From Dehalococcoidia bacterium (lineage in GTDB: Bacteria; Chloroflexota; Dehalococcoidia; Dehalococcoidales; W498), in assembly GCA_030608125.1 (NCBI GenBank), contig JAUWEU010000008.1:1-10997 (forward strand): a DNA stretch of 10,997 nucleotides, written 5' to 3'. Positions 1,228 through 10,997 of this stretch are shown here, piece after piece; positions within the stretch are counted from its first letter, which is position 1, and each line of letters opens with the position of its first letter. Made by a program: the position numbers and the translations under genes. The notes beneath the pieces were generated by a model. It was given only the letters and a program-made list of their open reading frames with translations. It had not been told where the DNA came from and searched no databases.

Positions 1228-1256
1228 TTGACAATATTAAAATAATTGGTTATTAT
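1228..1256 (+). promoter_or_regulatory. Strong sigma-70-type promoter of the metal-cofactor gene cluster
   Basis: A consensus -35 TTGACA (1228-1233) and a -10 TATTAT (1251-1256, five of six matches) have the ideal 17-base spacer. Transcription would start near 1263, giving a leader of about 29 bases before the DUF134 start codon. The -10 and start point are overlapped by the dyad at 1255-1270. Confidence 0.75.
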
Positions 1257-1291: not shown

Positions 1292-1642
1292 ATGCCTAGA
1301 CCACCTAAATGGCGCTGTGTTAGTTTTATGCCACAAATAACCTACTTCAAGCCAGCGGGGGTACCTCTTCGCTTACTCAAGGAGGTATGCCTTTCTGTAG
1401 AGGAGGCTGAAGCTATCCGGCTTAAAGACTTAGAAGGGCTGGAGCAGGAAGAATGCGCCCAAAGGATGCACATCTCACGCCCTACCTTCCACAGGGTGCT
1501 GGGAGCAGCCAGAAAGAAGGTAGCTGAGTCACTGATTAATGGTAAGGCGATTAGAATTGATGGTGGTAACTTTGAAATGGCTACCAGCCGATTCCGGTGC
1601 GATGATGCTGGGCATCAAGGGGATGTGCCTTTGAAACAATGA
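1292..1642 (+). CDS. UPF0251/DUF134 helix-turn-helix protein
   Basis: A 116-residue protein of the UPF0251 (DUF134) family, predicted DNA-binding proteins often found beside NifX-like genes. It has the family's MPRPPKWRCVSFMP start and FKPAGVPL. These are followed by a sigma-70 region-4-like HTH at about residues 35-75 (LSVEEAEAIRLKDLEGLEQEECA, then MHISRPTFHRVLGAARKKVAESL) and then GKAIRIDGGNFEM. The C-terminus (RFRCDDAGHQGDVPLKQ) looks like an eroded CxxCGH zinc-ribbon segment in which the second cysteine has become Ala. The ATG follows AAAGG at 1276-1280 with 11 bases between, so the ribosome binding site is modest. As first gene behind the 1228-1256 promoter and its dyad, it is the likely local regulator. 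Its ligand is unknown. Confidence 0.88.
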   Translation: MPRPPKWRCVSFMPQITYFKPAGVPLRLLKEVCLSVEEAEAIRLKDLEGLEQEECAQRMHISRPTFHRVLGAARKKVAESLINGKAIRIDGGNFEMATSRFRCDDAGHQGDVPLKQ

Positions 1643-1710
1643 CGACTAATCCTGCCTCTAGAGCAGATTGTGAGCAGAATGCGTGACCTAGAAGCGAAGG
1701 AGAGATAAGT

Positions 1711-2094
1711 ATGAAAATTGCCATATCAGCCACCGGTCCGAGCCTTAATGCTGAGGTAGACCCCCGCTTTGGTAGATGTCAGTATTTTATTATTGCTGAC
1801 CCGGACACGATGCAATTTGAATCTATACAGAACCCAAATATCATGGCTGCTGGTGGGGCTGGCATTTCCACTAGTCAGACGATTGCCAACTCAGAAGTAC
1901 AGGTGGTGCTCACCGGCGACTGCGGTCCCAATGCCTACAAGGTATTATCTGCCGCTGGAATCCAAGTAATAACCGGAGTTTCCGGGAAAATCCGGGATGC
2001 CATTCAGGACTACAAATCAGGTCAATTTCGAGCCATCCCACAACCTACGGTGGGCACCGTTCTTGACATGGGGATGGGACGAGGCAGGGGGTAG
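1711..2094 (+). CDS. NifX/NafY-like (dinitrogenase FeMo-cofactor-binding family, MTH1175-type) protein, first copy
   Basis: A 127-residue protein whose residues 1-105 form a complete DiNase_FeMo-co fold: MKIAISATG, then AEVDPRFGRCQYFIIAD, the GGAGISTSQTIAN loop, VVLTGDCGPNAYKVL and GVSGKIRDAIQDYKSGQ. Relatives bind metal clusters, for example the Mo-Cu cluster of Desulfovibrio orange protein. The frame ends at TAG 2092-2094 within a Gly/Met/Arg-rich linker (DMGMGRGRG). In related proteins such a linker continues into a C-terminal coiled coil, which here is encoded downstream in the +1 frame (2099-2266). Joining the frames at 2091/2093 would give a 184-residue protein. The ATG has AAGGAG about 9 bases upstream. 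The family call is firm. Whether the natural product is the short or the long form is open. Confidence 0.86.
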   Translation: MKIAISATGPSLNAEVDPRFGRCQYFIIADPDTMQFESIQNPNIMAAGGAGISTSQTIANSEVQVVLTGDCGPNAYKVLSAAGIQVITGVSGKIRDAIQDYKSGQFRAIPQPTVGTVLDMGMGRGRG

Positions 2095-2101
2095 AGGAAT
2101 G
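2086..2101 (+). other. Frame-break site: G5 run and stop codon before the NifX coiled-coil tail
   Basis: The frame of the NifX gene reads AGG GGG TAG at 2086-2094. Skipping one base (U2092) gives AGA GGA ATG, and the Gly/Met/Arg linker continues without interruption into the coiled coil. The site combines a G5 homopolymer (2087-2091), a stop codon and a Shine-Dalgarno-like AGGGGG. That last sequence is also found upstream of the +1 frameshift site of prfB. It equally sits seven bases before an ATG at 2099. It could therefore be an indel, a programmed +1 shift (GGG to GGU slippage) or a reinitiation site. Confidence 0.5.
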
Positions 2102-2266
2102 GGCCGTGGTAGGGGAGTTGGGATGATACCTATGGCTGGACCGTCATCCCAGCCGGCAAGCCCGGAACAGGAGCTAGAGGTGCTTAAAGCCCAATCGCAG
2201 ATGCTAGCGCAACAATTAGCTGACCTCCAGCGCCATATCGAAGAACTGGAAAAAGACAAAAGATGA
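2099..2266 (+). CDS. Gly/Arg-rich linker plus coiled-coil segment, out-of-frame tail of the NifX-like protein or separate 55-aa protein
   Basis: From the ATG at 2099 this encodes 55 residues: a start rich in Gly, Arg and Met (MGRGRGVGMIPM), a Pro/Ser linker, and a coiled coil (about residues 21-55, PEQELEVLKAQSQ then LQRHIEELEKDKR with leucines in heptad-like spacing). This architecture is normal for the C-terminus of MTH1175-type proteins, so by origin it belongs to the preceding gene. The open frame extends upstream to 1997 but only overlaps NifX code there. If translated alone, AGGGGG at 2086-2091 would be its ribosome binding site, with spacing 7 and coupling to the NifX stop. It could also be reached by frameshifting, or be dead code after an indel. 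Confidence 0.55.
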   Translation: MGRGRGVGMIPMAGPSSQPASPEQELEVLKAQSQMLAQQLADLQRHIEELEKDKR

Positions 2267-2281
2267 AGAGGAGGATACGTC

Positions 2282-2455
2282 ATGGCCGTCTGGAAATACG
2301 CAGGCAAGGAGGTAAGTGAGGAGGAGATAGACAAGGCTATTAACGCAGTGGCAGAGGCTTGCTTTAAGTGTGGCAAGGAAAACCATACTGATGAGTGTCC
2401 CATTTTCCAATTGATAGAAGAGTTAAAAGCCTTGAAGGGCTCTAAGGAGGAATGA
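2282..2455 (+). CDS. 57-aa protein with zinc-knuckle-like CX2CX4HX3C motif
   Basis: A small gene with a perfect AGGAGG (2269-2274) seven bases before its ATG. It begins 15 bases after the coiled-coil frame and ends three bases before fmdB, so it is clearly part of the operon. The product begins MAVWKYAGKEVSEEEIDKA. It then has CFKCGKENHTDECP, with C27, C30, H35 and C39, and ends in a charged helix (IFQLIEELKALKG). The pattern CX2CX4HX3C is one residue shorter than the retroviral-type zinc knuckle CX2CX4HX4C, and it should bind one Zn or another metal. I do not recognise a named family. In this context a metal-handling or adaptor role is an inference. Confidence 0.78.
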   Translation: MAVWKYAGKEVSEEEIDKAINAVAEACFKCGKENHTDECPIFQLIEELKALKGSKEE

Positions 2456-2458
2456 ATT

Positions 2459-2680
2459 ATGCCAATCTATGAATACCAGTGCACCCAGTGTGGAGAAAGG
2501 TTTGAGGTTCGCCAATCCATTGGCGAGGACGGCTCCAAATTAAACTGTCCCAAGTGTAATACCCAAAATCCGAGACGACTCCTTTCTTCGTTCTACAGCC
2601 CAGGTTCAGGGAAAACTGAACCCTCAGAAATAAGCTATCCTACCTGCAGTTCGGGTGTTTGCAACCTTCCGCCAAGGTAG
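2459..2680 (+). CDS. FmdB-family zinc-ribbon protein
   Basis: A 73-residue protein with the hallmark FmdB/CxxC_CxxC_SSSS start MPIYEYQCTQCGERFEVRQS and two CX2C knuckles, C8/C11 and C30/C33, which form a small zinc ribbon. The family is named after a putative regulator of a formamidase operon, but its general role is unknown. The tail carries two more cysteines, C63 and C68 (TCSSGVC), outside the ribbon. AAGGAGG at 2444-2450 lies eight bases before the ATG, and the gene follows the zinc-knuckle gene by only three bases. It is the second of three consecutive small cysteine-rich proteins placed between the NifX and MinD genes. Confidence 0.9.
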   Translation: MPIYEYQCTQCGERFEVRQSIGEDGSKLNCPKCNTQNPRRLLSSFYSPGSGKTEPSEISYPTCSSGVCNLPPR

Positions 2681-2715
2681 TGAAAGGCAGTCAGTTCTTT
2701 ATCGGAGGTATCATT

Positions 2716-2940
2716 ATGCCTAGAAGGGATGGAACGGGACCGCCTTGGGGTGGTGATGCAAAAAGAGGTATTGGACGAGGTGGAGGAGGTAGTGGTAGGA
2801 TGGGAGGCATACATCCCGGAGCTGGACCCGGTGGGAATTGTGTCTGCCCCAGTTGTGGGGCAAAAGTTCCTCATCAAGCAGGAACTCCCTGCTATAACCT
2901 GAGCTGTCCTCAGTGTGGCACAAAGATGGCGAGGGGATGA
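2716..2940 (+). CDS. Glycine-rich protein with C-terminal zinc-ribbon (CxCxxC...CxxxxCxxC)
   Basis: A 74-residue protein beginning MPRRDGTGPPWGG, which resembles the start of DUF5320-type proteins (MPRGDGTGP). Residues 11-41 are Gly/Arg-rich and probably flexible. The C-terminal part (42-67) holds six cysteines: C42, C44 and C47 (CVCPSCG), then C59, C64 and C67 (CYNLSCPQCG), a likely metal-binding ribbon. I chose the ATG at 2716 because GGAGGT (2704-2709) lies six bases before it. An upstream in-frame ATG at 2659 would overlap fmdB and add 19 residues of unlike character. The stop is one base before the next ATG, so translation of the following ATPase is probably coupled. Function is unknown. 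Confidence 0.82.
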   Translation: MPRRDGTGPPWGGDAKRGIGRGGGGSGRMGGIHPGAGPGGNCVCPSCGAKVPHQAGTPCYNLSCPQCGTKMARG

Positions 2941-2941
2941 G

Positions 2942-3796
2942 ATGATAATAGCTGTTGCCAGCGGGAAAGGTGGCACTGGAAAAACCCTAGTCGCCACCAG
3001 CTTGGCTCTGTCATTAGAAAATAAGAAACCAGTGCAGCTTCTCGACTGTGATGTAGAGGAACCTAATGCTTATATTTTTCTAAAGCCATCATTTAGCCAT
3101 AAGGAGACAGTTTCTATTCCTATCCCCCAGGTAGATGGGGAGAGGTGCACCTATTGTGGCAAGTGTGCTGAGGTCTGTGCCTATAACGCTATTGTTGTTT
3201 TCCCCAAACATGTTTTGATTTTCCCTGAGCTGTGTCATGGTTGCGGGGCTTGCTCTTATCTATGTCCCGAGGATGCTCTCTTTGAGGTAAACAAGGAGAT
3301 GGGAATCTTAGAGGCAGGCAGCTCAAAAGGGATTGAATTTGTCCATGGCGAGCTTACCATTGGTGAGGCTATGGCTCCCCCCGTAATCAGGGAGGTAAAG
3401 AAGCATATCAACCGAAAAAAGCTTACCATTATTGATGTTGCTCCAGGAACATCATGTCCCGTAGTTGAAGCGGTCAAGGGCAGTGATTTCTGCTTGCTGG
3501 TGACTGAACCTACCCCCTTCGGTCTCAATGACCTGGCTTTGGCAATAGATATGGTTAAGGAGCTGAATATCCCTTGTGGTGTAGTTATTAATCGAGATGG
3601 TGCCGGAGATAGTAAGGTTGAAGAGTATTGCCGCAAGGAAGGCATCCCCATTCTGCTGCGGATACCGCTAGATATTGAGATTGCCCGACTATACTCCAGA
3701 GGAATTACTTTGGTGGAGGGAATACCACAGTGGCAGGAACCATTCCTCAGGCTTTATAATGATATTGAGCAGATAGCACGCCAGACCGAAGGTTAA
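2942..3796 (+). CDS. MinD/ParA-type P-loop ATPase with inserted 2x[4Fe-4S] ferredoxin domain, copy A
   Basis: A 284-residue cytoplasmic ATPase of the COG1149 type. Residues 9-15 (KGGTGKT, signature Lys9) form the deviant Walker A, and DCDVEEPN follows at 35-42. A bacterial ferredoxin insert contains C69, C72, C75, C79 and C98, C101, C104, C108, two CX2CX2CX3C sets that each should hold a [4Fe-4S] cluster. The ATPase fold resumes with IIDVAPGTSCPVVEAV, VTEPTPFGLNDLALA and VINRDG. I prefer the ATG at 2942, which begins the first beta strand (MIIAVASGKGG) and follows GAGGGG at 2930-2935. The frame opens further upstream at 2915, inside the previous gene. Its nearest characterised relatives by architecture are the two ATPases of the Desulfovibrio ORP gene set. 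ATP-driven cluster transfer or positioning is an inference. Confidence 0.92.
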   Translation: MIIAVASGKGGTGKTLVATSLALSLENKKPVQLLDCDVEEPNAYIFLKPSFSHKETVSIPIPQVDGERCTYCGKCAEVCAYNAIVVFPKHVLIFPELCHGCGACSYLCPEDALFEVNKEMGILEAGSSKGIEFVHGELTIGEAMAPPVIREVKKHINRKKLTIIDVAPGTSCPVVEAVKGSDFCLLVTEPTPFGLNDLALAIDMVKELNIPCGVVINRDGAGDSKVEEYCRKEGIPILLRIPLDIEIARLYSRGITLVEGIPQWQEPFLRLYNDIEQIARQTEG

Positions 3797-3802
3797 ACAA
3801 AG

Positions 3803-4651
3803 ATGAAGGAGATCGTGGTTATTAGTGGCAAGGGAGGTACTGGCAAAACCATTATAGTAGCTTCCCTGGCTGCCTTGGCTAAAAGTAAGGTTATGGTTGA
3901 CTGCGATGTAGATGCTGCTGACCTCTACTTACTCCTCCGGCCGGTTACTCAGGAGAGGCGGGAGTTCTGGAGTGGACATAAGGCAGTTATAGATAGAGAT
4001 AAGTGCACCCAGTGCGGTTTGTGTCAAGATTTGTGCCGATTTAATGCCATAAATGAGTTCCAAGTTGATACTATCTCTTGTGAGGGCTGCGGCTTCTGCT
4101 ATAATATCTGCCCTGAAGAGGCTATCACTATGCAGGAGAACCTATCGGGAAGCTGGTTCACTTCCGATACCAGATACGGACCCTTGGTTTACGCCAAACT
4201 GGGTATAGCCCAGGAAAACTCGGGGAAACTAGTAGCCACGGTCAGACAACAGGCTAAATTCATTGCTGAAAAGCAAGGGCTTGACTATATATTAAGCGAT
4301 GGACCACCTGGTATCGGCTGCCCGGTTATCTCTTCCATATCTGGGGTAAATCTGGCAGTTATCGTCACCGAGCCAACCCTGTCCGGGATACACGACCTGG
4401 ATAGAGCTATTAGCGTTTGTCAGCACTTCAATGTCTCGGTTATAGTATGTATTAACAAATATGACCTGAATGAAGATAACACTCGTCAGATTGAAAGCTA
4501 CTGCCACAGCCAGGGAATAGAGGTCGCCTCTAAGATTCCTTTTGATAATGTGGTAACTGAGGCATTGGTTAAGGGATTACCTGTGGTGGAGTACTCTGAT
4601 AATAGTGTTTCGCAACAAATAAAGGCGCTATGGCAATCTATAGCGGGTTAA
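3803..4651 (+). CDS. MinD/ParA-type P-loop ATPase with inserted 2x[4Fe-4S] ferredoxin domain, copy B
   Basis: A 282-residue paralogue directly after copy A (six-base gap). It has KGGTGKT at 10-16 and VDCDVDAADLYLLL. The ferredoxin insert carries C68, C71, C74, C78 (CTQCGLCQDLC) and C93, C96, C99, C103 (CEGCGFCYNICP). After it come LSDGPPGIGCPVISS, VTEPTLSGIHDLDRA and INKYDLN. All nucleotide-binding and cluster-binding residues are intact. The central part is longer than in copy A (SWFTSDTRYGPLVYAKLG), the segment typical of the second member of such pairs. Two adjacent, diverged copies suggest that the active unit is a heterodimer, since MinD-type ATPases work as dimers. The ribosome binding site is weak (GAAGG about ten bases upstream), consistent with coupling to copy A. 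Confidence 0.92.
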   Translation: MKEIVVISGKGGTGKTIIVASLAALAKSKVMVDCDVDAADLYLLLRPVTQERREFWSGHKAVIDRDKCTQCGLCQDLCRFNAINEFQVDTISCEGCGFCYNICPEEAITMQENLSGSWFTSDTRYGPLVYAKLGIAQENSGKLVATVRQQAKFIAEKQGLDYILSDGPPGIGCPVISSISGVNLAVIVTEPTLSGIHDLDRAISVCQHFNVSVIVCINKYDLNEDNTRQIESYCHSQGIEVASKIPFDNVVTEALVKGLPVVEYSDNSVSQQIKALWQSIAG

Positions 4652-4670
4652 TCAAACTTAGGAGGAGACG

Positions 4671-5069
4671 GTGAAGATTGCGGCTATATCCGACGATGGA
4701 ACAACTATCAGCCAGCATTTTAGCAGAGCACCAGTCTATGTAGTGGTCACGGTGGAAGATGGCAAGATTACAAGCCAGGAGACACGAGCCAAGACCGGGC
4801 ATCATACCTTCGCTGCCCACCACCCCCCCAATTTAGCCCCAGGTGAAAGGCATGGCTATGATGCTGGCTCAAAGCTAAAGCACAAAAGTATGGCTGAGAC
4901 TATCTCTGACTGTCAGGTTCTTCTTGCCGGAGGCATGGGCTGGGGAGCCTATGAGGCTATGCAGAGCTATAATATTACACCTATAGTTACCGATGTAAGA
5001 AGCATCAACGAGGCTGTGCAGCTCTATTTAGATGGCAAACTGACCAATCTAATGGAGCGCCTCCATTAA
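4671..5069 (+). CDS. NifX/NafY-like (dinitrogenase FeMo-cofactor-binding family) protein, second copy
   Basis: A 132-residue protein starting at GTG 4671, four bases after a strong GGAGGAG (4661-4667). It has the DiNase_FeMo-co fold: MKIAAISDDGTTISQHFSRAPVYVV at the start, then QVLLAGGMGWGAYEAM, PIVTDVRSINEAVQLYLDGKL and NLMERLH. Between the third strand and the first helix it carries an insert with several histidines (GHHTFAAHHPP, ERHGYD) that is absent from the copy at 1711 and could supply extra metal ligands. It lacks the Gly/Met/Arg linker and coiled coil, so the two paralogues are specialised differently. It follows the ATPase pair, its likely partners, by 19 bases. Confidence 0.88.
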   Translation: MKIAAISDDGTTISQHFSRAPVYVVVTVEDGKITSQETRAKTGHHTFAAHHPPNLAPGERHGYDAGSKLKHKSMAETISDCQVLLAGGMGWGAYEAMQSYNITPIVTDVRSINEAVQLYLDGKLTNLMERLH

Positions 5070-5096
5070 TATTTATTTAAGTTGAGGTCTAGACAA

Positions 5097-5402
5097 ATGG
5101 CACTGGTTGAAGTAAGTGTAATTCCCGTAGGCACGCCGACACCTTCGGTTAGTCAATATATAGCCCGGGCGGTGAAGGTACTTGAAGGCGAGAAAGACAT
5201 AAAGTATGAGCTAACAGCGATGGGAACAATTATTGAGGGTGATTTGGAGCAGGTCTTGACTTTAGTTCGGAAAATGCACGAAGCTGTATTTAATGCCGGA
5301 GTTATGAGAGTAGTAACTACAATTAAGATTGACGACCGGCGAGATAAGGCTTCAAGCATGAGTAGTAAAATGGAATCACTGAAGAGAAAGTTGGAGTATT
5401 AA
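5097..5402 (+). CDS. MTH1187-family (DUF77, YkoF-like) protein
   Basis: A 101-residue protein of the MTH1187/DUF77 family, small alpha-beta ferredoxin-like proteins that form oligomers and have been linked to thiamine-related ligands. Motifs seen are VEVSVIPVGTPTPSVSQYIA, YELTAMGTIIEGDLEQVL, and VMRVVTTIKIDDRRDK, the usual end of the domain. The ATG at 5097 is preferred because GAGG at 5084-5087 is nine bases upstream and the protein then begins MALVEVSV as relatives do. A TTG at 5082 would add five residues. It lies 27 bases after the NifX-like gene. Its role in this cluster is unknown. Confidence 0.87.
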   Translation: MALVEVSVIPVGTPTPSVSQYIARAVKVLEGEKDIKYELTAMGTIIEGDLEQVLTLVRKMHEAVFNAGVMRVVTTIKIDDRRDKASSMSSKMESLKRKLEY

Positions 5403-5404
5403 AT

Positions 5405-5707
5405 ATAGCTAATTTTGACCAAATAGATGAAGCACGACGATTGTTAGGCTTGGGGGAGGCGGCTACCTTGAAGCAAGTGAAAGCAGCCTACAAGAGGGCA
5501 GCTAATCGCTACCATCCTGATAGGTGTAAAGAGGTAGATAAGGCAAAATGTGATGGGATGATGAAGAAGATAAATGAGGCGTATGAGTTAATAATGAAAT
5601 ATTGCGCTGAATATAGCTATCCCTTTGGTGAAGAAGATGTGAGAAGAACATATCCACACGATGAGTATCTGAGGAAATACCACTACGGTTGGTTTGATGG
5701 TATATGA
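5405..5707 (+). CDS. J-domain (DnaJ-like) protein; probable AUA start at 5405
   Basis: A short J-domain protein. Helix II and the HPD motif are clear (KQVKAAYKRAANRYHPDRC), followed by KINEAYELIMKYC and a C-terminal FGEEDVRR...YHYGWFDG tail, so it should stimulate an Hsp70 ATPase. No zinc-finger or substrate domain of full DnaJ is present. The only standard start codon (TTG 5441) would begin at LLGLGEA and cut off helix I. The frame stays open upstream, encoding ANFDQIDEARRLLGL, which fits helix I of related proteins, and has no ATG, GTG or TTG there. AUA at 5405 lies eight bases after GGAG (5393-5396), so I chose it (100 residues; HPD at 37-39). If that is wrong, the gene is 5441-5707 (88 residues). 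A J-protein fits cofactor insertion, as HscB does in Fe-S assembly, but that link is an inference. Confidence 0.72.
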   Translation: MANFDQIDEARRLLGLGEAATLKQVKAAYKRAANRYHPDRCKEVDKAKCDGMMKKINEAYELIMKYCAEYSYPFGEEDVRRTYPHDEYLRKYHYGWFDGI

Positions 5708-6413
5708 TTCAATGATGGAGAGGGTGCTCTTTAATGACCAGGCTACGCAATATGCTCTTTGGTATCAGACACCAGAGGGGCAGTACGCCGATACCTTAGA
5801 AAAGGAGTTGTTTCTCAAGCTAGTCCGGCCTAAATCCGGTCAGAGTGTGCTTGATATCGGCTGTGGCACCGGACATAATCTGGCTTTCTTCAAGGAATTG
5901 GAGCTGAAGGCGGCTGGCATTGATGCGTCTAAGCCAATGTTGGCTATTGCGTCCAAGAAACTTGGACCCGATGCTGAACTCCATTGGGGTCATGCTGAGG
6001 CACTACCATTTGATAACGATTCTTTTGACATTGTTACTTTAATTACTGTGTTAGAGTTTGTTTCTGACCCAACCAAAGTGCTCAAGGAAGCAGGGCGGGT
6101 GGCGCGGGCGCAAATTTATCTAGGGGTCTTAAACAAAATTTCACTGCTTGGAATAAATCGCCGAATCAAGGGCAAATTTCGGGATTCCATTTATAACCAG
6201 GCAAAGTTTTATAGCATCTGGGAGATAGAGGCAATGGTCAGAAGGGCAATGGGGAAGGTGCCTCTTGAGTGGCGGAGTACCTTATTTTCCCCACTAAGCT
6301 GGCATAAGTATATTTATCGTCTCGACAGGCTTATGCCTTCGGTCAACAACCCCTTCGGTGCATTTCTAGGCGTGAAGCTAAATGTGGAGAGGGGAAAAAG
6401 GAACGGCGCGTGA
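5697..6413 (+). CDS. SAM-dependent methyltransferase (UbiE/class I type)
   Basis: About 238 residues with a class I Rossmann methyltransferase core at roughly 48-150. Motif I is VLDIGCGTGHNL at about 51, followed by an acidic strand-2 end AAGIDASKPMLAIA, then HAEALPFDNDSFDIVTLITVLEFVSDP (motifs II-III) and VLKEAGRVAR. The C-terminal half (after NRRIKGKF) has no motif that would identify the substrate. The start is uncertain: TTG 5694, ATG 5697, ATG 5712 and ATG 5715 are all in frame. The first two overlap the J-domain gene by 11-14 bases and none has a strong ribosome binding site. I use 5697. It is a less usual member of a NifX/MinD cluster and may methylate a small molecule or a protein partner. 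Confidence 0.82.
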   Translation: MVYDSMMERVLFNDQATQYALWYQTPEGQYADTLEKELFLKLVRPKSGQSVLDIGCGTGHNLAFFKELELKAAGIDASKPMLAIASKKLGPDAELHWGHAEALPFDNDSFDIVTLITVLEFVSDPTKVLKEAGRVARAQIYLGVLNKISLLGINRRIKGKFRDSIYNQAKFYSIWEIEAMVRRAMGKVPLEWRSTLFSPLSWHKYIYRLDRLMPSVNNPFGAFLGVKLNVERGKRNGA

Positions 6414-6490
6414 TGCTAGCCCCAGCTTAGAGCCAAAAGATAAAAGTGCTGTTGCTGGTCTCTATATAAGATAGAAAGGAAGTATTGTTA

Positions 6491-7501
6491 ATGATTACCA
6501 AAGAACAGATTGAGCAGGCGCTCATTGAGGTGCTCGTTCCTGGGGCAGGGCGTAGTATAGTGCAACTAAATATGGTACGGGAGATTGAGGCTATAGATAA
6601 TACGGTCAAGATTACCCTAGCCGCTACTGCCTTGAGCCAAGGCTCCCAGGACTGGGTCAGGACAAAAACAAAGGCAGTGGTGGAGGGACTGCCCGAGGTA
6701 AATAAGGTAGAGGTAGAATTTATAGAGCGCAAGCCTGCAGAGCTAAACCAGATTAACCATGTCATTGCTGTAATGAGTGGTAAGGGGGGAGTGGGTAAGT
6801 CCCTGATAGCTAGTCTTATGGCAGTTGCCCTCCATCGTCAGGGAAACGAGGTAGGTGTTCTGGATGCTGATATTACCGGTCCCAGCATCCCTAAAATGTT
6901 TGGCATATCCACTCGACCTGGTGGTAGTGATACCGGAATTCTGCCAGTGATATCAAGGTCGGGGATAGAGATTATATCCATTAACTTGCTTCTGCCTCAG
7001 GAGGATGATGCCGTTATCTGGCGTGGTCCTCTTATCTCTAAGGCTATTACACAGTTCTGGGAGGAGGTAGTCTGGGGCAGGCTTGATTACTTAGTGGTAG
7101 ACCTGCCCCCGGGCACTGCCGATGCCTCTCTTACCGTAATGCAGACAATTCCTATATCCGGGGTAATCATCGTTTTCACCCCTCAGGACTTAACAGCTAT
7201 GGTGGTTAGAAAAGCAGTGAATATGGTGCAGAAGATGGATAAAGCTATCCTGGGTGTAGTTGAGAATATGAGCTACCTGTACATACCCGAAATAGATAAG
7301 CGAATTGAACTCTTTGGCAAGAGTAGAGCAGAGGACATGGCACAGGTAGCCGGTGCCCCTTTTCTGGGGCAGTTACCCATAGACCCGGAGTTAGCCAGGT
7401 TATGTGATGAAGGCACTATAGAAAGCTACAACTCTGACGCCTTCATTGCTCTTAGTCAAGCCTTTGTCCAGGCATTGCCTAAAACCAAGGTAGAATGGTG
7501 A
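6491..7501 (+). CDS. Mrp/NBP35-type P-loop ATPase with N-terminal DUF59 (MIP18-like) domain, cysteine-poor
   Basis: A 336-residue protein of the Mrp/ApbC Fe-S carrier family. Residues 1-78 form a DUF59 domain (VPGAGRSIVQLNMVREIE, then VNKVEVEF). Residues 88-330 form the ATPase, with KGGVGKS at 98-104, VLDADITGPSIPKMFG, VIWRGPLISKAI, YLVVDLPPGTADASLT and GVVENMSYLYIPE. Normal Mrp proteins carry a CxxC after ENMSY that holds a bridging cluster. Here that position reads YLYIPEIDKRIELFG with no cysteine. The DUF59 TPGCP cysteine is also replaced (AATALSQGS). The only cysteine visible is in RLCDEG near the C-terminus. The ATG at 6491 has AAAGGAAG (6475-6482) eight bases upstream; a TTG at 6485 is too close to it. 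It ends inside the radical SAM start. Confidence 0.9.
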   Translation: MITKEQIEQALIEVLVPGAGRSIVQLNMVREIEAIDNTVKITLAATALSQGSQDWVRTKTKAVVEGLPEVNKVEVEFIERKPAELNQINHVIAVMSGKGGVGKSLIASLMAVALHRQGNEVGVLDADITGPSIPKMFGISTRPGGSDTGILPVISRSGIEIISINLLLPQEDDAVIWRGPLISKAITQFWEEVVWGRLDYLVVDLPPGTADASLTVMQTIPISGVIIVFTPQDLTAMVVRKAVNMVQKMDKAILGVVENMSYLYIPEIDKRIELFGKSRAEDMAQVAGAPFLGQLPIDPELARLCDEGTIESYNSDAFIALSQAFVQALPKTKVEW

Positions 7502-8265
7502 AATCTATAATCTATGGTCCTGTTCCTTCATGGCGGCTGGGTAGGTCTTTGGGAGTGGATTTAGTCTCTACTGAGGGCAAGACCTGCTCCTTTGACTGCA
7601 TCTACTGTCAACTGGGCAGAACAATATATCCTCAGATGGAACGGCGAGAATTTGTGACCATAGCTCAGCTAGCCACAGAGCTGGAGGCAGTAAAAAACAA
7701 TATAGTGGCTGACTATGTTACCTTCTCCGGGATGGCAGAGCCAACCCTAGCCAGCAATCTAGGAGAAGCCATCAGGATAGCCAAGTCAATCCTACCCTTA
7801 CCAGTGGCAATTCTAACTAACTCCTCTCTTATGCCCAGGGAAGATGTGTGTGATGATTTAGCACAGGCAGATGTAGTAATAGCCAAAATAGATGCGGCTA
7901 ATGAACAGATGTTCCGGCAGATTAATAACCCTGTGGTAGATTATTCCTTTGACCAAATACTCTGCTCCATAGAAGACTTCAGAAAAAGATTCAAGGGAAA
8001 GCTAGCTTTACAAATGATGTTCATTGCTATAAATAAGGATTATGCCCGACAAATGGCAGACATAGCCAGGCGGCTTTCACCTGATGAAGTACAGCTTAAT
8101 ACCCCACTGCGTCCCTGCCCGGTGAAACCGTTAACCCCAGAGGCAATGACCATTATAGAAAGTGAGTTTACCGGTCTAAGAGTGGTAAATGTCTATCAAG
8201 GGCTGAAACCAGAGGTTGTGCCACTAAATTTAGAGGAAACATTAAGACGGAGACCAAAACTATAG
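7495..8265 (+). CDS. Radical SAM protein, COG0731-like
   Basis: A 256-residue radical SAM enzyme. C31, C35 and C38 (CSFDCIYCQLG) form the CX3CX2C motif that binds the [4Fe-4S] cluster for SAM cleavage. The start YGPVPSWRLGRSLGVD and VTFSGMAEPTLASNLGEAI are typical of the COG0731-like group, which is often annotated as Fe-S oxidoreductase or wyosine-synthase-like. Other landmarks are VVIAKIDAANEQMF, RRLSPDEVQLNTPLRPCPV and LTPEAM. No SPASM or extra cluster domain is seen. The gene overlaps mrp by seven bases (ATGGTGA), so it is translationally coupled. Starts at ATG 7495 or GTG 7498 are both possible, with AAGG at 7487-7490. The substrate is unknown. A role in maturing the cluster's cofactor or protein partners is an inference. 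Confidence 0.87.
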   Translation: MVKSIIYGPVPSWRLGRSLGVDLVSTEGKTCSFDCIYCQLGRTIYPQMERREFVTIAQLATELEAVKNNIVADYVTFSGMAEPTLASNLGEAIRIAKSILPLPVAILTNSSLMPREDVCDDLAQADVVIAKIDAANEQMFRQINNPVVDYSFDQILCSIEDFRKRFKGKLALQMMFIAINKDYARQMADIARRLSPDEVQLNTPLRPCPVKPLTPEAMTIIESEFTGLRVVNVYQGLKPEVVPLNLEETLRRRPKL

Positions 8266-8281: not shown

Positions 8282-8851
8282 TCAAAAATCCTGGGCTGGT
8301 TTTATCGGTAATGGTAAGCCAGCCACCATCAGGTAAATCTCATCAGCTCGCTGTGCCAATATCTGGTTTGCTTTACCCAGAAGGTCACGATATAACCTGC
8401 CCACTTTATTAGCCGGCACTAAACCTGTGCCAACCTCGTTGGTAACAATAATGAAGCTGGCATCAACTTGGTTGATACACTCTACTAGCTGGCTAATCTC
8501 ATCAGTAAGCTTTTTCTCAATAAGGGGAGCGTCAATTTGCTCGGTATTCTGGTGGCTATATTGACCAAAAATGTTATTAACCAGGAGGGTGATGCAGTCC
8601 AAAATCACTACCTGAGCCTCACCAATTTTTTGAAGAATCTCCCTACCGACATGGGTGGTAACCTCAAGGGTGCTCCAGGCTGATGGTCTTGCCTTTTGGT
8701 GCTCTTCAATGCGGTGCCGCATCTCCTCATCACTAGCCTCGGCTGTTGCCACAAAGAGTACCGGTTTGTCTAACTTTAGGGCAAGCTCCTGGGCAAAAGT
8801 ACTTTTGCCACTACGGGCGCCACCAATTATTAAGATGCACATTTTACTCAC
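8282..8851 (-). CDS. cobU: Adenosylcobinamide kinase / adenosylcobinamide-phosphate guanylyltransferase
   Basis: A 189-residue CobU. It phosphorylates adenosylcobinamide and then transfers GMP to give adenosylcobinamide-GDP, in the cytoplasm, late in cobalamin synthesis or salvage. Seen: P-loop GGARSGKST (10-18), VLFVATAEASDEEM, the RIEEHQKARP segment (47-56) in which the family has its GMP-accepting histidine, ILDCITLLVNN (Walker B-like), and VTNEVGTGLVPANKVGRLYRDLLGKANQ. Length is normal. I use the GTG at 8851, five bases after GAGG (8857-8860). ATG 8842 is in frame but 14 bases from it. It is the last gene of the cobT-cobS-cobC-cobU unit and ends 16 bases from the convergent radical SAM gene. 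Confidence 0.95.
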   Translation of the reverse strand: MSKMCILIIGGARSGKSTFAQELALKLDKPVLFVATAEASDEEMRHRIEEHQKARPSAWSTLEVTTHVGREILQKIGEAQVVILDCITLLVNNIFGQYSHQNTEQIDAPLIEKKLTDEISQLVECINQVDASFIIVTNEVGTGLVPANKVGRLYRDLLGKANQILAQRADEIYLMVAGLPLPIKPAQDF

Positions 8852-8873
8852 TTTGTCCTCAAGTCATACCTCT

Positions 8874-9479
8874 TTATCTCAAATGAGAAACCTCGTTTAA
8901 TAGATTTAGTATCGCTCCCTGGGAATAGGTTTCCACTATACTAAGCGAAGCCAAATCAAGGCGAAACTGCCGCCAGTGCCGCAACTCTAAGCCTAAAAGA
9001 TGGCATACCAGTAGCCGCAGCGGTCCGGCATGAGCCACAATAAGTATTGTTTCCTCTGGGGTATGCTTCTCCAGTGTGCTTAAGAATTTGCTCACCCGGT
9101 TATTGAACTTATCAAAATTTTCGCCATCGGGAAACTCAAGACCGAGACTCCGGCTGACCCACGCTTGAGCAACCTCAGGATAAAGCCGACTAACCTCGTC
9201 AAATGTCAGCCCCTCAATCTTGCCAAAGTTAACCTCGTTCAGCTCGTCACAGGTTATAACATTTGACTGGTGCTTAGAGGCTATAACCTTAGCCGTTACC
9301 GAAGCTCGCTGTAGGTTACTGGTATAAATAGCATCAATCTTCTCTGTTGCCAGCCGGTCACGCAATCTTTCAGCCTGCCTGAGTCCAGCACCACTCAGCT
9401 TGACATCACTCTGCCCCCAGTACCTTAGAGCACTGCCTGATTCAGTATCACCATGTCTCACCAGGAGTAATTTAGACAA
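8874..9479 (-). CDS. cobC: Histidine phosphatase, probable alpha-ribazole-5'-phosphate phosphatase
   Basis: A 201-residue member of the phosphoglycerate mutase-like phosphatase branch. The catalytic motif LLLVRHGDT has R8 and the phospho-accepting H9, and the core continues with R58 (NLQRAS), E82 (LNEVNFGKIEG) and H150 (IVAHAGPLRLL). The family is broad, but its place between cobS and cobU supports CobC, which removes phosphate from alpha-ribazole phosphate (or from cobalamin phosphate) during nucleotide-loop assembly. The start is TTG 9479 behind GGAGGT. The gap to cobS is 13 bases and to cobU 22 bases. Without the context a general phosphatase would be as likely. Confidence 0.88.
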   Translation of the reverse strand: MSKLLLVRHGDTESGSALRYWGQSDVKLSGAGLRQAERLRDRLATEKIDAIYTSNLQRASVTAKVIASKHQSNVITCDELNEVNFGKIEGLTFDEVSRLYPEVAQAWVSRSLGLEFPDGENFDKFNNRVSKFLSTLEKHTPEETILIVAHAGPLRLLVCHLLGLELRHWRQFRLDLASLSIVETYSQGAILNLLNEVSHLR

Positions 9480-9492
9480 TTATACCTCCGAA

Positions 9493-10272
9493 CTAGGCTA
9501 ACCCCAACCACTGGTTGTAAGCCAGCAGACAAACAAGGATAAGCACACAAACCTCAGCCACCTCATTTATAGCCCCGTAGGTGTCACCGGTAAGACCAGA
9601 AAACTTACGCTTAAAATAGGCTGCCATAGCTATGGTGATAACCCAGATACCTACTATTATAGCTGGTCCTACTAAAAAAAAGTAAGTTATGTTTGCCCAC
9701 CAAGCTAGACCTATGGCTACCGCCAGGGTTATGAGTGTAGCCATAATAAATCTTGGCCAGTCAGTAGCCTGCTTACGCTCCTTTCCCAAACCTGATGCTC
9801 TGGCAGAGGGATAGGCGAAAATAGCATAGACCATTGCCCAACGACTTACTACCGGCATAAGTACCAGGGTCATCATCAGTAAAGGCTCAGGCACACTATT
9901 CAGTGAGATATATTTAACCAGTAGTAGGCAACAAGCGCCAATAATACCAAAACCGCCGACCCGACTGTCACGCATTACCTGCCATCTTTCTTCAGGAGTC
10001 TTGTGCCCACCTATCCCGTCGCAGGTATCAACAAAGCCATCAAGGTGCAATGCGCCACTAATCACCACCAGGGCAACAATCAGCAGCACATTAGCTACAG
10101 ACGAAGGTAAAAAAAGACCCAAGAGCCAATAAAGCCCGACCAGGATTAGACCGATAAGAAAGCCGACCACGGGATAATAACCCACGGAGCGTACAAATTC
10201 CTCCCGGCTAGCTTCACGCCCCCAGGGTAATGGTATACTGGTTAGAAATCTTATCGCCGCCAGCAACGACAA
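9493..10272 (-). CDS. cobS: Adenosylcobinamide-GDP ribazoletransferase (cobalamin synthase)
   Basis: A 259-residue integral membrane protein that joins adenosylcobinamide-GDP with alpha-ribazole (phosphate). It begins LLAAIRFLTSIPLPWG, has the family hallmark GALHLDGFVDTCDGIGG (73-89) followed by RWQVMRDSRVGGFGIIG, with Asp/Arg residues expected to bind Mg and the GDP moiety, and near the end has FSGLTGDTYGAINEVAEV. About six to seven hydrophobic segments are apparent (roughly 35-52, 60-75, 108-125, 132-150, 170-190, 194-215 and 240-255). The likely start is TTG 10272, five bases after cobT stops, and a second in-frame TTG lies at 10266. The ribosome binding site is weak, consistent with coupling to cobT. 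Confidence 0.95.
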   Translation of the reverse strand: MSLLAAIRFLTSIPLPWGREASREEFVRSVGYYPVVGFLIGLILVGLYWLLGLFLPSSVANVLLIVALVVISGALHLDGFVDTCDGIGGHKTPEERWQVMRDSRVGGFGIIGACCLLLVKYISLNSVPEPLLMMTLVLMPVVSRWAMVYAIFAYPSARASGLGKERKQATDWPRFIMATLITLAVAIGLAWWANITYFFLVGPAIIVGIWVITIAMAAYFKRKFSGLTGDTYGAINEVAEVCVLILVCLLAYNQWLGLA

Positions 10273-10277
10273 CTTTG

Positions 10278-10997
10278 TTACTCTTCTTTCTCTGATACCT
10301 CAGCCTCAGCAAAGGTAGCCATTTCAGCCAGAATCCTGGCTGAAGTCTCAGCCAGAAATATTCCCAGCGCAGCCCCGGTGCCCTCACCCAAACGCATGTC
10401 CAGAGTGAGCAATGGCTTAAGCCCAAGATGCTCAAGTAGTAACCGATGACCTGACTCAGCCGAAAGATGAGCCGCAATAAGGAAAGCCTTCAATCCTGGC
10501 GCTAGTGCCGTGGCAATGAGAGCTGCCGCCCCAGAGATAAAGCCATCAATAACTACCGGAATGCGGTGGGCGGCTGCGGCTAACATCACCCCAACCAACC
10601 CACCAATCTCAAAGCCACCTACCTTAGCCAGCACAGCCAAAGGCTGAGCCGGGTCAGGGCGGTTCACCGCCAGAGCTCTGTTTATTACTTCCACCTTATG
10701 GGTCAACTGCTCATCAGTTATACCAGTACCTCTACCAGTTACCTCAGCCACTGGTTTCCCAGTAATAACGGCACAAATAGCGCTGCTGGCAGTAGTATTA
10801 CCGATGCCCATATCACCAGTGCCTACTATATCCAGACCCTTAGCCACCTCTTCCTTTACTATTTCAATCCCCGTCTCAATTGCCCTCACTGCCTGCTCGT
10901 CAGTCATAGCTGGACCTAGACATATATTTTGGGTGCCAGGGGCAACCTTCCTGGATAAAAGCTGAGGATTGGTTTCCAGCTCAGATGCCACCCCCAT
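10278..10997 (-). CDS. cobT: Nicotinate-nucleotide--dimethylbenzimidazole phosphoribosyltransferase, C-terminal two thirds (cut by right edge)
   Basis: 239 residues of CobT are visible, ending at TAA 10278. The N-terminal 110 or so residues lie beyond the window, and the ATG at 10997 is internal. CobT activates the lower-ligand base by forming alpha-ribazole phosphate from nicotinate mononucleotide. Diagnostic stretches are NPQLLSRKVAPGTQN, IVGTGDMGIGNTTASSA, VTGRGTGI, VLAKVGGFEIGGLVG, VVIDGFISGAAAL and MRLGEGTGAALG. The Glu of LGEGTGA (visible residue 205) corresponds to the family's catalytic base. It is the most upstream gene seen of the cob operon, so any promoter or cobalamin riboswitch would lie outside the window. 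Confidence 0.96.
   Translation of the reverse strand: MGVASELETNPQLLSRKVAPGTQNICLGPAMTDEQAVRAIETGIEIVKEEVAKGLDIVGTGDMGIGNTTASSAICAVITGKPVAEVTGRGTGITDEQLTHKVEVINRALAVNRPDPAQPLAVLAKVGGFEIGGLVGVMLAAAAHRIPVVIDGFISGAAALIATALAPGLKAFLIAAHLSAESGHRLLLEHLGLKPLLTLDMRLGEGTGAALGIFLAETSARILAEMATFAEAEVSEKEE

Follow-up and report, generated by a model that had tools for sequence, protein, structure and literature searches.

The stretch of DNA analysed here, called the window, comprises 10,997 nucleotides from a Dehalococcoidia bacterium (contig JAUWEU010000008.1, assembly GCA_030608125.1). Its positions 1292–8265 carry a gene cluster, all on the + strand, for which Pfam and NCBIfam searches together with the list of open reading frames (ORFs) gave the order DUF134, NifX1, ZnA, FmdB, ZnB, MinD1, MinD2, NifX2, MTH1187, J-domain protein, methyltransferase, Mrp, and radical SAM protein. 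The reading which we favour, tentatively and as something short of probable, is a system, linked to anaerobes, for the assembly, storage and transfer of an anionic metal sulfide for which NifX1 is the holder. With this cluster the fold of orange protein (ORP) and a storage architecture like that of IssX are found in one conserved gene set, together with a small J protein which, among the genomes tested in two classes, occurs only where MinD1 occurs. We infer the cargo and all biochemical steps of the system, and the sequences do not allow the metal, Fe-S versus Mo-Cu-S, to be assigned. The role of the ORP genes is itself unsettled: a part in cell division, a part in Fe-S maturation, and a cluster of Mo and Cu have each been discussed (PMC6345978). 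The question raised by the cluster is whether MinD-type ATPases and Hsp70 fill and empty a metal-sulfide store of anaerobes.

NifX1 and its glycine-rich tail

In relatives of the window cluster NifX1 is a single protein which consists of a Di-Nase domain, a repetitive glycine, methionine, and arginine (GMGR)n tail and a C-terminal helix. Such a copy is encoded in L111, the cluster locus of genome G296, whose MinD1 is 88% identical to that of the window. Two window ORFs match the opposite ends of this intact protein, each in a frame of its own, and are separated by a shorter repeat. The first (1711–2094) contains the Di-Nase domain (PF02579, E=6e-24) with the ORP fold and the start of the GMGR tail, and the second (1997–2266, where 2266 is the end of the portion matching relatives) a GRG stretch and the C-terminal helix, recognised as DUF5320 (PF17253). 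This two-frame match identifies the window "DUF5320" as the end of NifX1. The candidate of NifX1 and DUF5320 as two separate window genes was rejected, both being collinear with the single L111 protein.

A structural model of the L111 protein, calculated with a 20-row alignment, was confident for residues 1–112 and for a helix from 201 to 231, and disordered from about 120 to 198. Its best match among solved folds was apo-ORP of Desulfovibrio gigas, with a root mean square deviation of 1.0 Å over 115 columns and 40% identity; NifX in complex with NifEN was matched as well. At the level of sequence the window piece found D. gigas ORP (2wfb, E=1.3e-19) and MTH1175 (1eo1, E=1.8e-19) equally well in the PDB, and MTH1175 is a member of the IssA clade according to excerpts of PMC5524996.

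The tail was then surveyed in 220 NifX ORFs from 114 loci (L007–L080 and L111–L150) plus the window. A tail of at least 18 amino acids with at least 20% glycine, ORFs with unknown residues being excluded, was present in 65 of the 220, with a pooled composition of 30% G, 11.5% R/K, and 4.7% D/E, which partly includes the helix where its pattern was missed, the helix having been cut off in 16 of the 65. The DUF5320-type helix was seen in 26 of the 220 ORFs, 22 of these in the set from the class of genome G003 (the genome of locus L005), that is Dehalococcoidia, which is meant by "the class" throughout. NifX and a ZnB-type zinc ribbon share a single frame in L013 and L027, and a related ribbon was recognised by eye in L074; these fusions argue that NifX1, DUF5320, and ZnB (2716–2940, a Gly/Arg-rich zinc ribbon protein) act as one body.

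This architecture resembles IssA of Pyrococcus furiosus, in which a Di-Nase domain is followed by a cationic glycine-rich tail proposed to hold thioferrate, and IssX, an uncharacterised clade of nonthermophiles with glycine-rich tails (both from excerpts of PMC5524996). In the intact relatives, and out of frame in the window, the IPR003731 domain likewise precedes a glycine-rich, cationic, disordered tail, and MTH1175, from the IssA clade, is as good a match of NifX1 as ORP is; the likeness is one of architecture and sequence match. Unlike IssA and IssX, the tail in the class is rich in methionine instead of aromatic residues, ends in a helix and sits in an ORP-like cluster with ATPases. In Methanococcus voltae grown on pyrite two IssA homologues rise (PMC8516115), and so does a pair of radical SAM proteins whose gene numbers are close to theirs (PMC9431491).

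On the favoured reading NifX1 would be the holder. Its ORP-fold domain would bind the sulfide, the disordered cationic Gly/Met/Arg tail would wrap it and the C-terminal helix would oligomerise the holder, with DUF5320 and the zinc ribbon protein as parts of the same body. A more specific form of this reading, which we regard as conceivable but doubtful, is an undescribed Hsp70-assisted polymer store: NifX1 with its (GMGR)n tail would form a particle around an anionic Fe-S or Cu-Mo-S chain, the MinD pair would use ATP and electrons to load and unload this particle, disassembly would be driven by the J protein via DnaK, and the SAM enzymes would modify the RG-type tail or the sulfide. If true, this would unite ORP and IssA/IssX in one system.

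The first-pass annotation of the window had put forward an assembly line for an undefined cofactor. One alternative to the favoured reading is a true ORP-type assembly line for a Mo-Cu sulfide cluster, in which the methionine-rich tail would give Cu(I), the MinD pair and NifX2 would deliver thiomolybdate, and NifX1 would carry the finished cluster to a target. Clusters of methionine bind Cu(I), and the class tails contain 14.6% methionine; D. gigas ORP is the best match by the fold of the relative and, jointly with MTH1175, by sequence, and the MinD pair and DUF134 recur together with NifX1. Against this stand the conserved cysteines of NifX1, in the motifs FGRC (33 of 35 in the class, 31 of 45 outside) and CGPNA (31 of 35 and 13 of 45), which are absent in D. 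gigas ORP, where the same positions read FGRA and VGPKA. Mo-Cu in particular was not borne out, as the NifX1 tail points at least equally to an IssA-type storage of iron sulfide, and we consider this alternative possible but rather unlikely.

Recurrence of the core and of the accessory genes

A scan with MinD1 through named genomes gave the best 80 loci from Bacteria and Archaea, of which 74 (L007–L080) were tallied, the six closest being left out. The core was represented by MinD2 in 71 loci, NifX in 67, DUF5320 in 34, Mrp in 31, ZnB in 21, and DUF134 in 19, the accessory genes by radical SAM and methyltransferase in 14 each, FmdB in 9, J in 3, and MTH1187 in none; all these counts are lower bounds, as score thresholds were applied and many contigs are short. 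Of the 294 genomes of the class 47 have MinD1 (E 1e-60), and the loci of 40 of these 47 were tallied. Here NifX was present in 39, MinD2 in 38, ZnB in 34, DUF5320 in 32, DUF134 and Mrp in 28 each, and FmdB in 24, followed by radical SAM in 15, a window-type NifX2 in 10, methyltransferase in 8, J in 5, ZnA in 4, and MTH1187 in one. G296 carries the whole set in the same order with a separate DUF5320 gene in addition and cobU beyond it, and among the matches listed the closest named relatives of the window cluster are Dehalococcoidia. The ORP-like core claimed at first pass was thus recovered in Bacteria and Archaea as MinD1-MinD2 and NifX, often with DUF5320, a zinc ribbon, Mrp, and DUF134. A second set of MinD-like, NifX, and J genes was observed on another contig (C49) of the planctomycete genome G006, the genome of L029. 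The open-access literature listings, covered in part, contained no paper on the combination of ORP, DUF134, DUF5320, J domain, NifX, and MinD, which is no proof of absence.

For the accessory genes, counts of copies near to and far from MinD1 gave p=0.3 for radical SAM, 0.02 for methyltransferase, 0.3 for J, and 0.1 for FmdB outside the six closest loci, and p=0.04, 0.3, and 0.4 for radical SAM, methyltransferase, and J in the class. These counts are weak; little far sequence was available, and whole-genome counts were used instead, on 80 class genomes, namely all 47 that have MinD1 plus the first 33 of the 247 that lack it.

The radical SAM protein (7495–8265, CxxxCxxC, PF04055), which we take to be COG0731-like, was detected at E 1e-30 in 32 of the 47 MinD1-positive and in none of the 33 MinD1-negative genomes (Fisher p 4e-11). 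In 18 of the 32 the gene and MinD1 are no more than 10 kb apart, three of these 18 having it at 37–40% identity. A search of the PDB with this protein gave no match at E 0.001. The class I SAM methyltransferase (5694–6413, PF08241) has relatives which adjoin J or MTH1187 genes. Its window type was found at E 1e-25 in three of the 80 genomes, near MinD1 in G296, beside J in G121, and beside MTH1187 in G162. As the methyltransferases fall into at least three subfamilies, the pairing with J recurs yet does not involve one and the same protein. Both SAM enzymes may modify the cofactor or cargo, or the holder itself. Two side observations concern these enzymes: in a related cluster a SPASM-type radical SAM gene near the AhbD/NirJ2 models lies between MinD2 and NifX2 (L119:5921–6934), and at L144:2173–6462, in divergent orientation to the ORP-like cluster, genes for a damage-control phosphatase, a ferredoxin, and a polypeptide deformylase adjoin those for J, methyltransferase, and radical SAM proteins.

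The small J-domain protein (5405–5707, PF00226) has an HPD motif, which is invariant in eight of eight aligned sequences (alignment A2), and a C-terminal tail. Its subfamily was found at E 1e-12 in 9 of the 47 MinD1-positive versus none of the 33 MinD1-negative class genomes (p 0.009). In the class of the Phycisphaerae genome G007 the J search matched 51 of 248 genomes, and the 30 planctomycete loci fetched divided into 20 with a small J and 10 with a canonical long DnaJ. MinD1 lay within 1.5 kb in 15 of the 20 small-J loci versus none of the 10 long DnaJ loci (p 2e-4), and these 15 linked loci also contained a methyltransferase in 13 and MinD2 in 9 cases. Planctomycete loci also show J or methyltransferase located between MinD1 and MinD2. 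On the scale of whole genomes MinD1 was present in 20 of 20 small-J-positive versus 6 of 30 other genomes of this class (p 5e-9), the latter made up of 20 in which J was not matched and 10 whose sole J match was a long DnaJ, taken in list order. The J protein may recruit Hsp70 for release of the cargo or remodelling of the polymer, a role which HscB-HscA performs for IscU. With the iron-sulfur cluster (ISC) system it would share a small HPD-bearing J protein tied to a metal-sulfide system, a functional parallel only. It differs from HscB in that Pfam finds the DnaJ domain alone, and neither hscA nor iscU was among the window genes searched.

MTH1187 (5097–5402), of the thiamine-binding type (TIGR00106; PDB 1lxn, E=1e-21), behaved differently from these genes. 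At E 1e-8 it was found in 21 of the 47 MinD1-positive and 8 of the 33 MinD1-negative genomes, and G296 is the one genome in which it lies near MinD1. This distribution led to its rejection as a fixed component of the system, and it is probably not one. The first-pass view of the additional genes as one set hence stands in part: radical SAM, J domain, and methyltransferase are linked to the core in other genomes also, and MTH1187 was seen beside the cluster in just two cases, the window and G296. On contig C29 of G162 (L152), a contig other than that of MinD1, MTH1187 adjoins a window-type methyltransferase, which suggests a separate MTH1187-methyltransferase pair.

The same data bear on the alternative that the ORP-like core is an ordinary one which the accessory genes adjoin independently. 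MTH1187 lies on a contig other than that of MinD1 in 20 of 21 positive genomes, and in the window a terminator-like hairpin (5050–5068, at the end of NifX2, from a consensus scan only) stands ahead of it, with 11 such sites in the region versus 7.6 ± 2.4 in shuffles. J, methyltransferase, and radical SAM also occur together away from MinD1 (L154, L155), as do J and methyltransferase in L151, and inside loci the near/far counts for the three genes were mostly not significant. This alternative is hard to reconcile with the radical SAM genes found within 10 kb of MinD1, with a small J that among the genomes tested in two classes never occurs without MinD1 (9 of 9 and 20 of 20) and with the planctomycete genes inserted between the two ATPases, and we judge it quite improbable.

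Somewhat less improbable, though still unlikely, is a set of genes dedicated to maturing a single family of anaerobic enzymes, such as corrinoid or tungsten/molybdenum enzymes, with the sulfide as a mere intermediate. Radical SAM, methyltransferase, and Mrp proteins, all present here, are typical of maturation sets. The radical SAM protein weakly matches a model of a tungsten-cofactor maturase (39 bits, cut-off 380), and genes of cobinamide salvage adjoin the cluster in the window, as cobU does in G296. This neighbourhood is confined, however, to one of the 40 class loci, cobU having not been found at the other 39 loci fetched.

The link to anaerobes, which the favoured reading includes, is seen in the heme-copper oxidase COX1, which was over its cut-off in none of the 47 MinD1-positive class genomes, with one weak match below the cut-off, versus 27 of the 33 MinD1-negative ones. 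The same split makes anaerobic lineages a confounder of the co-occurrence within the class, and this is the first of several points that weigh against a metal-sulfide system centred on NifX1. Nine of the 32 genomes with radical SAM have the gene only at 36–44% identity; at 56% identity or more the count is 23 versus 0 genomes (p 4e-7). Just four of the nine class J genes lie within 10 kb of MinD1, while of the remaining ones two are on a radical SAM contig and one is beside a methyltransferase. At five of the 20 planctomycete loci with a small J, the 1.5 kb on either side contain no gene of the core. In the Desulfobacterota class the J search matched 68 of 241 genomes, mostly with a different J subfamily without the core, and the core came within 1.5 kb of J at just four of the 30 loci fetched, the ones with an identity of 85–100%. 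The criterion for a glycine-rich tail was failed by 155 of the 220 NifX ORFs, many of them NifX2-like, and the class tails contain 1.8% F/W/Y, the tail of P. furiosus being aromatic-rich instead. Finally the window copy, with the NifX1 frame interrupted and DUF134 truncated, may be damaged or misassembled; intact NifX1 copies were found in relatives.

The MinD pair, Mrp, and NifX2

MinD1 (2942–3796) and MinD2 (3803–4651) are MinD-ferredoxin P-loop ATPases by Pfam and NCBIfam; both show 4Fe-4S matches, and their Walker A is of the deviant type. A comparison of these ATPases with proteins of the DVU2103/DVU2104 type had been proposed at first pass and was carried out with stand-ins for D. vulgaris, namely Desulfobacterota loci and the Desulfohalobiaceae locus L078. 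In the resulting tree the 121 sequences labelled MinD1 and the 107 labelled MinD2 according to profile score fell into one clade each, with none misplaced and a support of 1.0, which argues for an old duplication common to the loci sampled. The pair could provide an ATP-gated electron or cluster transfer of the ferredoxin type, for loading or unloading of the holder.

Membership in the MinD family would also fit a complex for cell division or pole positioning, as once proposed for the ORP complex of D. vulgaris, which in excerpts of PMC6345978 is putatively involved in cell division and has a polar MrpORP. We regard this as very improbable, as the ATPases bear 4Fe-4S motifs of the ferredoxin type and have NifX, J, and radical SAM proteins as their companions.

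The window Mrp (6491–7501) consists of DUF59 and an NTPase domain (PF01883, PF10609), and its deviant Walker A, GKGGVGKS, fits the GKGGxGK[ST] of Mrp/NBP35. CxxC was present in none of 27 readable class ORFs (29 including the window, two unreadable), and in all of 27 readable ORFs outside the class (31 in total, four unreadable). The number of cysteines in the NTPase domain was 1–2 in 28 class sequences and 2–8 in 30 others. For comparison, CxxC is among the features common to HCF101 and Ind1 in excerpts of PMC7980591, and for HCF101, which also has DUF59, further, other cysteines are listed in PMC5890173. Mrp as a classical Fe-S carrier was rejected on these grounds. NifX2 (4671–5069, PF02579, E=4e-15) is of a cysteine-poor SQHF..AP...ERLH type by motif tally, with a histidine-rich loop, and gave no match in the PDB at E 0.001. 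It lacks the Cys/His ligands of MrpORP, the motif being taken from excerpts of PMC6345978. With these ligand losses in both proteins, the Fe-S carrier step of MrpORP should not be transferred to this class untested, and a [4Fe-4S] cluster is not to be assumed for the Mrp partner. The two proteins may instead form an ATPase-adaptor pair which is no classical [4Fe-4S] carrier.

The cluster has counterparts of both domains of MrpORP (NF041136), Mrp at E=1.5e-93 and NifX2 at E=8e-8, unlike there as two genes, with Mrp reaching 314 bits versus a cut-off of 450 and with CxxC absent. With the ORP complex of D. vulgaris (Orp3, Orp4, Orp5, Orp8, and Orp9/MrpORP in excerpts of PMC6345978) the cluster shares two MinD-ferredoxin ATPases, comparable to Orp3/Orp4, an ORP-fold NifX similar to Orp8, Mrp, and the link to anaerobes, observed in one class. 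It differs in its separate Mrp and Di-Nase genes, the DUF59 and missing CxxC of Mrp, the missing ligands of NifX2, the added J domain, methyltransferase, radical SAM, and zinc ribbon proteins, the long GMGR tail and helix on NifX1 of relatives, and the absence of a sigma-54 activator from the window. Lacking a fused CxxC MrpORP and a sigma-54 activator, it is not a strict D. vulgaris ORP complex. It would work like ORP plus IssA, as an ORP-like variant that was seen in Dehalococcoidia and, less completely, among planctomycetes and Desulfobacterota.

Remaining features of the locus

The searches confirmed the domains that had been named at first pass for DUF134, the two Di-Nase/NifX matches, the MinD-ferredoxin pair, MTH1187, the J domain, the methyltransferase, Mrp, and the radical SAM protein. 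Of the three small zinc proteins proposed there, the FmdB-family ribbon (2459–2680; TIGR02605, PF09723) was recovered, ZnB has a Pfam match below threshold and a family in relatives, and ZnA (2282–2455) is a 57-amino-acid protein with cysteines, seen in 4 of 40 class loci.

DUF134 (1292–1642; PF02001, E=6e-25) is a helix-turn-helix protein. It ends in a C-terminal cysteine-rich ribbon in L111 and is truncated before this ribbon in the window. A sigma-54 activator gene sits beside the ORP operons of D. vulgaris, and DUF134 had been seen as its replacement. A search of 18 window ORFs yielded no such activator, and the window has no ORF of its size that lacks an assignment. The sigma-70 promoter suggested upstream of DUF134, TTGACA-17-TATTAT at 1228–1256 (+), matches 11 of 12 consensus positions; as the region has 13 promoter-like sites versus 11.5 ± 3.2 in shuffles, it counts as a consensus match only. 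In excerpts of PMC7565180 DUF134 and DUF5320 proteins are named merely as candidates with an RG-type G-quadruplex-binding motif.

The J gene apparently starts with ATA at 5405, where L111 has ATG, and the separate DUF5320 gene of L111 is absent from the window. Just upstream of the promoter-like site lies a tRNA-Ala (TGC) gene (1092–1165, −), and a partial gene for a serpin, a serine protease inhibitor (3–473, −, PF00079), was found in this Dehalococcoidia-like contig. Convergent with the cluster, positions 8282–10997 (−) carry the cobinamide-salvage genes cobU, a histidine phosphatase gene, cobS, and cobT.

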